A program made the translations under genes and the position numbers. From Candidatus Poribacteria bacterium (lineage in GTDB: Bacteria > Poribacteria > WGA-4E > WGA-3G), in the NCBI GenBank assembly GCA_028820845.1, contig JAPPII010000015.1, forward strand, positions 62,001 through 126,000: a DNA stretch of 64,000 bases, given 5' to 3'. Below, piece by piece: positions 14,090 to 61,710 of the stretch. The first letter of the stretch is position 1, and the number at the start of each line of letters is the position of its first letter. The notes under the pieces were generated by a model. It worked only from the letters and a program-made list of their open reading frames with translations, made no database searches and was not told the origin of the DNA.

Positions 14090-14130
14090 GGTGTCAAACC
14101 CCCGTCCTTTAGGGCGCGGATGTAGACACC
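14090..14130. repeat. Left-end hairpin of TnpB element
   Basis: GGTGTC pairs with GACACC (6 bp). Inside, CCCCGTCC pairs with GGGCGCGG around a TTTA loop, with one mismatch. It probably marks the left end of the element, and might also act as a transcription stop after the FMN reductase gene, although no long T-run follows. An older TnpB right end would look similar. Confidence 0.65.
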
Positions 14131-14155: not shown

Positions 14156-14184
14156 TTGACTTTGGTGTAAAATTGTGGGATAAT
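14156..14184 (+). promoter_or_regulatory. Sigma-70-type promoter of tnpB
   Basis: TTGACT (14156-14161), a 17-bp spacer and GATAAT (14179-14184). Each hexamer matches consensus at 5 of 6 positions. The expected start, about 6-7 nt after the -10, is near 14190. That is the first base of the closing stem of the structured leader. Confidence 0.7.
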
Positions 14185-14189
14185 TAAGG

Positions 14190-14274
14190 TATCCGTTGGC
14201 AAGCAGAACAAGCGTCATCTCTCGGTGGCGTGCTTGCATCCCACTTGTTCGGGGATAAAGACAGATAACGGATA
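14190..14274 (+). ncRNA. Structured 5' leader of tnpB (possible pseudoknot)
   Basis: Complementary segments seen directly: the closing stem TATCCGTT (14190-14197) with AACGGATA (14267-14274), 8 of 8; GCAAGC (14199-14204) with GCTTGC (14232-14237); GAACAAG (14206-14212) with CTTGTTC (14244-14250), 7 of 7, which crosses the previous stem; and ATCCC (14238-14242) with GGGAT (14252-14256), whose loop holds CTTGTTC. A competing fold is a hairpin of CAAGCGTCAT (14209-14218) with GTGGCG plus CTTG (14225-14236), bulging two bases. The ATG is at 14279. The best SD-like bases (ACGGA) are in the closing stem. I match it to no known riboswitch. It may instead act as single-stranded DNA during transposition. 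Confidence 0.55.
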
Positions 14275-14278
14275 TACT

Positions 14279-15391
14279 ATGAGAATAGCCTACGGGTTCA
14301 AACTTCAGTCGCAAAAGAACGTCATCAAACTCGGCAACATGATTGACGATATGTGGGGCATCCATTTGCATATCATGTTGCTGGCACGCCGGTATCGTCG
14401 TATGTTTGGAAAAGATGTATCTGCATACAAACTCAAAAGACACGTCACCAAACTCAAAAAGCGGACAAAACCGCACTGGGCAGCCTTGCCGAGTCAAGTT
14501 GTTCAAGACGTTGTATTGCGGTATGGCAAATCCCAAGACGCATTTTTTCAGAACAAGAAAGACCGAAAAGCAGGTAAAACGAACCGCAAAGTCGGTAGAC
14601 CAAAAATCAAGTCTCGCCACAAATACAACTCTATGACGTTCACACAAGCCGGCTATACACTCGAAGAAAATCGTATTAAAATCAACTGTATAGGCACATG
14701 GTTCTCTTTCCACAAACACCGTAAAATTGAAGGCATTATCAAGACGATCACCATCAAGCGAGATAGGTGTGGGGACTATTGGATATATTTTTCGTGCAAG
14801 AAAGTTGATGATTCTAAACTCAAATCCAAGACGGGTAAGAGCGCAGGATTTGATTACGGAAACAAAACATTTCTCACAAGCGACGCAGGCGATAAGATAG
14901 CATCTCCGCAATTTCTCAAGCAATCGCTGAAGACGTTGCGAACTCTGAACAAGGCACTTTCGCGTAAAGTCAAAGGTTCGGGTAACTGGTACCGTGCGGC
15001 TCGTGCTTTGGCAAGACTCCATAGAAAGATTACCCGACAAAGAGAAGATTGGCAATGGAAACTTGCGACCGAACTTTGCACCGAGTTTGACGTGCTTTGC
15101 TTTGAGACCCTGAATCTTGACGGCATGAAACGCCTCTGGGGACGTAAGGTCTCTGACCACGCCTTCTACCAGTTTCTGCAGATACTGGAACAGAAGTGTG
15201 CAAAGCACGGCAAAAAACTCAAGAAAATCAGTCAGTGGACAGCGACAACAAAGCCTTGCAGTGATTGCGGATACCATAATAAAGAACTCTCTCTTTCAGA
15301 TAGACAGTGGACGTGTCCTGAATGTGATTCCCATCACGACCGAGACGTAAACGCGGCTATCAATATCAAACGGGCAGGCTTGGCTGCCTAA
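14279..15391 (+). CDS. tnpB: TnpB RNA-guided endonuclease
   Basis: 370 residues from the ATG at 14279; a longer frame opens at 14225 but would run through the structured leader. TnpB proteins are RNA-guided RuvC-type DNA nucleases of IS605-group elements. RuvC residues are visible: D192 in AGFDYGNK, E276 in LCFETLNLDG and an Asp of HDRDVNAAINI (354 or 356). The zinc finger uses C327/C330 (PCSDCG) and C346/C349 (CPECD). The basic N-terminal half includes a KKDRKAGKTNRKVGRPKIK patch. All key residues are intact, so the nuclease is probably active. The 3' end should overlap the omega RNA. Confidence 0.95.
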   Translation: MRIAYGFKLQSQKNVIKLGNMIDDMWGIHLHIMLLARRYRRMFGKDVSAYKLKRHVTKLKKRTKPHWAALPSQVVQDVVLRYGKSQDAFFQNKKDRKAGKTNRKVGRPKIKSRHKYNSMTFTQAGYTLEENRIKINCIGTWFSFHKHRKIEGIIKTITIKRDRCGDYWIYFSCKKVDDSKLKSKTGKSAGFDYGNKTFLTSDAGDKIASPQFLKQSLKTLRTLNKALSRKVKGSGNWYRAARALARLHRKITRQREDWQWKLATELCTEFDVLCFETLNLDGMKRLWGRKVSDHAFYQFLQILEQKCAKHGKKLKKISQWTATTKPCSDCGYHNKELSLSDRQWTCPECDSHHDRDVNAAINIKRAGLAA

Positions 15392-15475
15392 AGTGGAGCA
15401 GACATAAGACGACTTTTCTCTGAGAGAAAAACGCTGACTGCGAGGAAGCACAAGCCCTACGCTTTAGCGTGTGGG
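15373..15475 (+). ncRNA. Putative omega RNA 3' part / right end
   Basis: Three hairpins follow each other across and after the tnpB stop: GGCAG/CTGCC (15373-15388), TTTTCTC-TGA-GAGAAAA (15414-15430) and CCCTACGC/GCGTGTGGG (15455-15475). In studied TnpB systems the guide scaffold overlaps the 3' end of tnpB and ends at the right end, so the guide is the flanking DNA. Here it would read from about 15476 into the first codons of rnhC. The 5' limit of the RNA cannot be seen. Confidence 0.5.
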
Positions 15476-15485
15476 TACCTATGAC

Positions 15486-16166
15486 ATGGACACCATACAC
15501 AATTGGGATGCCTGGATTGGCACAGATGAAGCCGGAAAAGGCGATTATTTTGGTCCGCTTGTTGTCGCAGCCGTTTATGTAGACGCAGCGTGTCGCGAAA
15601 CCCTTTCGACTCTCGGTATCACTGATGGGAAAAAGCTATCGAACCGACGCATCCAACGCCTCGCTGAACTGATGCACAATGACTATGAGGCGTATATCGT
15701 TGTTGTTGAAAAAATGCCGACCGACTACAATACCCTTTATAACGATCTCCGTAGGCGTGGACAAAACTTAAATCACTTACTCGCCTCCCTTCATAGAGAA
15801 GCCATCGAGACATTGGCAACCCGGGTAGGGGCGAAACATGTACTTGTTGACAAATTCTCTAAAAATGACCTTATCAAACAACAAACAGATGATGAACGAC
15901 ACCGAAAAATAAAAATAATCCAGGAGCCAAAAGCGGAACGTGATATCGCTGTTGCTGCAGCCTCTATTATTGCTCGTGACACTTTTCTAAAGCGGATGGA
16001 AGTACTGTCTGAAAAATATGAGATACGTCTACCAAGAGGTGCATATCAAGTTATTGATGCGGGTAGAGAATTTATTCGATTGCATGGAAGCAATGCTCTG
16101 GGAGATGTCGCGAAACTTCATTTTAGTTTGACAGATGCTGTCCTTCGTAAACAAGTTTTCTTTTAA
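15486..16166 (+). CDS. rnhC: Ribonuclease HIII, catalytic domain only
   Basis: 226 residues from the ATG at 15486. A GTG at 15471 is also in frame but lies inside the right-end hairpin of the TnpB element. The enzyme cleaves RNA in RNA-DNA hybrids. WIGTDEAGKGDYFGPLVVAA is the type HIII active-site block; further motifs are DGKKLSN, HVLVDKFSKND and a PKAERDIAVAAASIIARDTF block. Family members are usually near 300 residues because of an N-terminal TBP-like substrate-binding domain. That domain is absent and the gene begins about where the catalytic domain should. No good ribosome site precedes either start. thiI follows after 23 bp. Confidence 0.9.
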   Translation: MDTIHNWDAWIGTDEAGKGDYFGPLVVAAVYVDAACRETLSTLGITDGKKLSNRRIQRLAELMHNDYEAYIVVVEKMPTDYNTLYNDLRRRGQNLNHLLASLHREAIETLATRVGAKHVLVDKFSKNDLIKQQTDDERHRKIKIIQEPKAERDIAVAAASIIARDTFLKRMEVLSEKYEIRLPRGAYQVIDAGREFIRLHGSNALGDVAKLHFSLTDAVLRKQVFF

Positions 16167-61419: not shown

Positions 61420-61504
61420 GTCAGCTCCTTTCTACTCGCGTTATATGGAGTCGAGGTGCGGCACCCCGACACCCAACAAACTGTTTAATTCAACACAAGA
61501 TTAC

Positions 61505-61672
61505 ATGCAAAAAGCCCCCATTGGCTGCTGGAGGCTCATATCAAAAGGCAAGAAAGAGACGAATGAAGAACGGTTACGTTCTACCCGAAAAACTTCTGCT
61601 GCTTTTATTCCATCTAAGCCTCGGTAGGCAATTAAGCCAACGGCACCTACGGTCTACGACTTTATTTAATTG
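61505..61672 (-). promoter_or_regulatory. L10 leader (autoregulatory RNA)
   Basis: On the minus strand the leader contains GACCGTAGGTGCCG, GGCTTAATTGCCTACCGAGG and, about 100 nt later, a terminator hairpin (GCCTCCA/TGGGGGC, 61536-61513) followed by five T. This is the typical L10-leader arrangement: the first part binds L10-L7/L12 and the hairpin acts as attenuator. It lies between rplA and rplJ. Confidence 0.9.
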
Positions 61673-61710
61673 TAAGGGCTATTCCATAGAATCTTAGCAT
61701 TTCACGGAAC

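Follow-up and report, generated by a model that had tools for sequence, protein, structure and literature searches.

What occupies the ~90 nt between the -10 box and the tnpB gene of an IS200/IS605-type element in Candidatus Poribacteria is the question raised by this locus, which lies in a stretch of 64,000 nucleotides (assembly GCA_028820845.1, contig JAPPII010000015.1, positions 62,001 to 126,000; termed the window, in whose own numbering positions are given). A first-pass annotation had proposed that a structured, pseudoknot-like 5' leader begins there at the predicted transcript start; such a leader, with a true pseudoknot, is strongly supported by covariation and by a fixed distance from the promoter. 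The interval proved to be the window copy of a leader family, and the compensatory base changes among its members make us highly confident that this is a conserved structured RNA with the fold described below. Comparative analysis shows nucleotides 14190-14274 to encode a three-way junction, consisting of a closing stem (P1), an arm of two helices (P2/P3) and a hairpin (P4), the loop of which forms a 7-bp pseudoknot.

Fold and covariation of the leader

The window belongs to a 5.7-Mb genome with 24 tnpB homologs, those other than the window copy being between 83% (best) and 29% (weakest) identical to the window protein. Reading of the upstream DNA revealed a leader of ~95 nt before 22 of the 24; the two without one (loci L027 and L035) are also without a normal gene 5' end. 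A first family model, comprising P2, P3 and P4 only, was built from 17 leaders of this genome. Pairing across the four helices, with the pseudoknot counted among them, is 98.9% in these 17, and 16 of the 26 pairs change on both sides, with 73 double-sided changes as compared to 21.8 expected from shuffles and at most nine in any slid control; none of the slid controls reaches 44% pairing. All helices thus covary among the tnpB homologs, and each of the middle four positions of the pseudoknot takes three or four pair types. In a test set of 51 sequences, the alignment of which was not fitted to P1 or the pseudoknot, the pseudoknot yields a covariation score of 0.740 (slid controls at most 0.130). 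These counts take related sequences as independent, a concern which the slid controls and the very different TnpBs lessen and do not remove. The window strand itself has a folding z-score of -2.54, one of 200 shuffles being as stable. The four pairs in the middle of the pseudoknot (columns 23-26 and 66-69 of alignment A3) vary much more than any other part of the leader, and come close to a bar code that tells copies of otherwise alike elements apart.

The promoter, closing stem, crossing pairing and hairpin lie where the first-pass annotation had placed them (Table 1), while its inner stem is present as P2 with 7 bp in the window copy instead of the 6 bp proposed (8 bp in most copies), and the 7-bp P3 was absent from its list. 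A competing 10-bp hairpin, also proposed there, arises because the motif CAAG is common to P2 and the pseudoknot strand in the window copy, and it is not conserved in the alignment. Nor is the motif ACGGA, described there as like a Shine-Dalgarno (SD) sequence, conserved as such: a 4-nt SD match is found in 1 of 110 tnpB leaders versus 17 of 28 window genes (match of at least 4 nt), in a genome that carries the usual anti-SD sequence. Two further features had been missed, namely a tandem second partner for P1 and the occurrence of the domain outside tnpB.

Two tandem partners for the closing stem

The 5' strand of P1 has two complementary segments, designated copies A and B, which are arranged in tandem after P4 and before the start codon; examples are TATCACGTT with GGCGTGATACGTGA and TATCACACT with GGTGTGATGTGTGATA. 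In the 51 sequences, copy A is 89.7% paired with a covariation score of 0.310 (slid controls at most 0.073), and copy B is 91.4% paired with a score of 0.289 (slid controls at most 0.077). The pairings P1:A and P1:B use one strand and both covary, and are thus mutually exclusive pairings of a kind that could form an expression platform. At least two complementary copies were counted in 114 of the 123 distinct leaders of the first collection, as opposed to 5-6% of letter-shuffled tails. Of 118 leaders, 110 have their copies spaced 7 nt apart and 102 have P1 at a distance of 5-7 nt from the end of the -10 hexamer, from which P1 is predicted to start at or next to +1.

Energies read from the columns of alignment A3 are unreliable for shifted rows, and were recomputed as duplexes. 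In 98 of 118 leaders, the A and B duplexes lie no more than 2 kcal/mol apart. A P1 strand borrowed from a leader with another core yields about -2.8 kcal/mol, as compared to -7 kcal/mol for a leader's own strand. The window copy yields -2.7 kcal/mol for copy A, with one mismatch, and -8.5 kcal/mol for copy B.

Table 1. Parts of the leader and of the surrounding element, in window positions
Feature	Position	Strand	Details and evidence
Promoter	14156..14184	+	-35 TTGACT 14156-14161, 17-nt spacer, -10 GATAAT 14179-14184; window sequence
P1 5' strand TATCCGTT, predicted first transcribed bases	14190..14197	+	Closing stem with AACGGATA 14267-14274; sequence, covariation with both 3' copies
P2/P3 arm	14198..14238	+	P2 14199-14205 with 14231-14237; P3 14213-14219 with 14224-14230, loop 14220-14223; P2 98.5% and P3 99.2% paired (17 leaders), changes on both sides
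Pseudoknot 5' strand GAACAAG	14206..14212	+	Bulge between P2 and P3; pairs with CTTGTTC 14244-14250; 100% paired in 17 sequences, 94.9% in 51
P4 hairpin	14239..14255	+	14239-14242 with 14252-14255; pseudoknot 3' strand as its loop, between A14243 and G14251; sequence, covariation
J4/1 UAAA, A-rich joiner	14256..14259	+	Alignments; conserved in tnpB and host-gene leaders
Copy A GACAGATA, first tandem 3' partner of P1	14260..14267	+	7 of 8 pairs; family covariation
Copy B AACGGATA, second tandem 3' partner of P1	14267..14274	+	8 of 8 pairs; covariation
tnpB, 370 amino acids	14279..15391	+	ATG 14279-14281, 4 nt after copy B; Pfam PF07282 and PF01385; RuvC residues D192, E276 and D354; two CxxC
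Left-end hairpin CCCCCGTCCTTTAGGGCGCGG, IS200/IS605-type element	14099..14119	+	Sequence; same left end repeated elsewhere in the genome
Right-end hairpin and element end ...TATGAC	15455..15485	+	Hairpin 15455-15475; sequence

With its TnpB domains, RuvC acidic residues and end hairpins, the element is of the IS200/IS605 type with TnpB. Its right end up to TATGAC is common to it and an 83%-identical copy (locus L016), and the expected 3' guide-RNA scaffold sits just upstream of that end. The right end (...TATGAC, 15485; region 15471-15488) abuts the likely start codon of rnhB (RNase HII) at 15486, so that the element's guide would be the rnhB start. Elsewhere in the window, positions 61499-61675 of the reverse strand carry an ordinary L10 ribosomal protein leader (RF00557).

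Spread of the family and its occurrence outside tnpB

The model search returned 21 copies in the window's genome and, summed over the per-genome counts, ~670 matches (E up to 0.01) spread over 50 of the 85 genomes of the phylum, with up to 49 copies in one genome. All 38 genomes of the genus carry matches, while the family and order have fewer, and the more distant classes that were searched have none. When 84,980 species genomes were scanned with a DNA pattern, at least 117 stretches were returned, all of which, among the matches listed, belong to Candidatus Poribacteria; the leader has no match in plasmid DNA, and the pattern was also found in one viral-labelled contig. A viral-labelled contig (IMGVR_UViG_3300033059_000057, loci L206/L207) carries two leader copies and a third related fold, and may represent a Poribacterial phage or a mislabelled host contig. 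In a viral-labelled contig that encodes a 91%-identical TnpB (L270), the promoter is gone together with half of the leader, and this copy was set aside as uninformative. No leader precedes seven TnpB relatives of 40-45% identity from Cyanobacteria, Thermodesulfobacteriota, Bacteroidota, Rhodothermota and Bacillota. More distant versions of the fold (L283, L289, L296, L319 and L321) have P2 GGTAGAGA and a P4 such as CCAA/TTGG; several of them keep the 7-bp pseudoknot, and one precedes a TnpB. A loose structure scan without sequence gave equal hits on reversed and real sequence, and its hits were used only where homologs were at hand. One weak reverse-strand hit (L104:7635-7729, in alignment A4) is a probable false hit and a slight contaminant of model R2.

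A TnpB match follows 97 of the 123 distinct leaders, most of the others running out of sequence or being decayed. The same fold, in different letters, also opens insertion elements of ~375 nt that have no open reading frame (ORF) and comprise a left end, a promoter, the leader, another conserved stretch, the guide-RNA scaffold and a right end; in nearly all of them, ~345-377 nt separate the start of the leader from the right-end hairpin. The helices of 24 such elements are 99.1% paired, and 22 of their 32 pairs change on both sides; the elements are possibly trans-acting guide-RNA elements. They occur in 23 of the 38 genus genomes (e.g., L007:1580-2080, L013, L002 and L240-L267). Their second domain, TTCGGAGCAGAGGTGAAAGTCTGCACGTTGTAT (L007 ~1700-1790, L240-L267), resembles by eye part of the flavin mononucleotide riboswitch core, and no Rfam match to it was obtained at E up to 1.

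Host genes are likewise preceded by the fold, those seen first encoding coiled-coil proteins of a membrane type with no left end upstream. A second model that included host-gene leaders was used to find more of these copies, and leaders were identified before three DNA methylases (PF01555), a nucleotidyltransferase (PF01909), a protein with an ApeA domain (PF18862, 128.8 bits) and several unknown small proteins. Among 22 host-gene leaders, the pseudoknot is still perfect in twelve, which represent eight sequence versions, and two P1 partners persist in most; the ApeA copy is without P3 and the pseudoknot, and is regarded as no more than a degenerate member. The ORFs of some host genes begin ~80-110 nt downstream of the leader. 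A single island of the window's genome (L323, G000:C114:234000-243500) contains both the methylase and the ApeA copies, and the association with defence genes comprises a handful of cases. The coiled-coil family (L209, L212, L215, L216, L304, L311, L313 and L315), large and of 115-160 amino acids with a signal-like start ELTDADLDKIRLIVKEEV, has several copies in most genomes and no Pfam family; some of its members have the leader and others an ordinary SD sequence instead.

Possible function and comparison with known systems

What the contexts have in common is position, as the fold begins at the predicted +1 in all of them. The host-gene copies and the fixed promoter distance argue for action at the RNA level. 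We tentatively place first, short of even confidence, the reading that the leader is a 5'-terminal RNA domain which seals the transcript start and has exchangeable registers. Transcription would start at P1, such that the first nucleotides of the mRNA would be paired, and P1 would exchange between registers A and B, which are of similar energy in most copies. A paired 5' end slows 5'-dependent decay, and RNase J and RNase E/G are both encoded in the window's genome, which together with the shared +1 position is why sealing is ranked first. In tnpB mRNAs, register B would pair the bases just before the SD-less start codon while register A would leave them free, so that the exchange could gate translation. 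A protein, a ligand or co-transcriptional folding by itself might bias the choice of register. The translation switch suggested by the first-pass annotation is therefore possible for tnpB; it is not the whole story, because the domain also opens ORF-less elements, which have no start codon, and lies up to ~110 nt from the starts of host genes. A purely translational switch is ruled out by these ORF-less elements; what the leader would do in both them and the host genes is shield the 5' end against 5'-dependent decay. Several points weigh against sealing with exchangeable registers. The position of +1, and hence of the first transcribed nucleotides within a helix, is predicted from promoter spacing alone, and a fold of this complexity is seldom required of a plain structural stabiliser. 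When P1 is swapped between leaders, two copies are still found in ~59%, many cores being similar, and the tandem feature therefore rests on covariation and not on raw counts. The window copy may be locked, register B being by far the stronger of its two registers.

Among the other explanations, a riboswitch-like RNA, in which one factor (a ligand or protein) binds the pseudoknotted core and selects the register, would make the mobile and defence genes one regulon. The same fold before tnpB, DNA methylases, ApeA, the nucleotidyltransferase and coiled-coil proteins, and two near-isoenergetic, mutually exclusive P1 partners such as a switch needs, speak for it; yet few unpaired bases outside J4/1 are conserved, leaving no obvious small-molecule pocket, and gene-less RNAs carry the fold as well, so that we regard it as unlikely. 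Antitermination or pausing like that of put, with the emerging RNA acting on RNA polymerase so that poorly translated or untranslated transcripts reach the 3' guide RNA, fits the position at +1 and the use on untranslated elements with a 3' guide-RNA scaffold, but is improbable given the host genes with ordinary SD-led ORFs. Were TnpB to bind its own leader and repress its translation, the frequency with which TnpB follows the leader and the ORF starts ~4 nt past copy B would be accounted for; this is very improbable, as the fold stands on host genes other than tnpB, the associated TnpBs fall to 29% identity and the seven relatives from other phyla are without it. The earlier suggestion of a second RNA bound by TnpB likewise finds no support as a specific role, given the leaders before methylase, ApeA and coiled-coil genes. 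The ends of IS200/IS605-type elements work as single-stranded DNA hairpins, and the leader lies inside such an element, but a DNA fold for transposition, also suggested earlier, is scarcely credible: the element has separate end hairpins, host-gene copies are without a transposon end, and helix changes on the transcribed-sense strand favour G-U pairs over A-C mismatches by ~93 to 10. This excess alone is no proof, because G-T wobbles could also sit in top-strand single-stranded DNA. On comparative evidence, chance, the transposition fold and a TnpB-only RNA are all disfavoured. It is conceivable, if doubtful, that the leaders represent a new class of 5'-end RNA switches, in which the pseudoknotted junction controls how the first strand of the transcript moves from one to the other of two tandem partners that co-evolve with it, and which would join transposon mRNAs, gene-less guide-RNA elements and defence genes in one RNA-controlled regulon linking mobile elements and host defence.

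Rfam scans gave no meaningful match for the window leader at E up to 5 or for its relatives at E up to 1, nor any to a known self-cleaving ribozyme class. Searches of open-access PMC text found no paper on the leader RNA and none with both TnpB and Poribacteria, and we know of no structured element at the 5' end of tnpB transcripts; an abundant RNA family in this position has thus apparently gone undescribed so far. It raises the question of how RNA-guided transposon nucleases are restrained at the RNA level, and its recurrence in front of ApeA and DNA methylase genes suggests that mobile and defence genes of these uncultured sponge symbionts are controlled together.

Known TnpB guide RNAs (reRNA or omegaRNA) contain a pseudoknot, and the leader resembles them in being structured, pseudoknotted and part of the same element, which here keeps its normal right end. 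Guide RNAs, however, lie at the 3' end and carry a guide, whereas the leader lies 5' of the ORF, opens the predicted transcript, has no guide and is also found on host genes. The HEARO or IscB omegaRNA (RF02033) is similarly a structured RNA upstream of an IS200/IS605-type nuclease gene, but was not matched in the Rfam scans of the window leader and its relatives, and the leader has no guide upstream because the promoter abuts P1. With cis-regulatory 5' leaders, i.e., riboswitches and protein-bound leaders, the family shares its place in the 5' untranslated region, a three-way junction with a loop contact and exclusive pairings, and differs in beginning at +1, in its two interchangeable P1 partners and in its presence on ORF-less RNAs. 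The put antiterminator RNAs of HK022 are also promoter-proximal structured RNAs on mobile-element transcripts, with a different fold. Finally, 5'-terminal stabilising stem-loops such as the ompA leader have paired first nucleotides, as predicted here, whereas the present leader adds an elaborate pseudoknot and a double P1 partner, the latter offering a simple natural system for the study of helix exchange.
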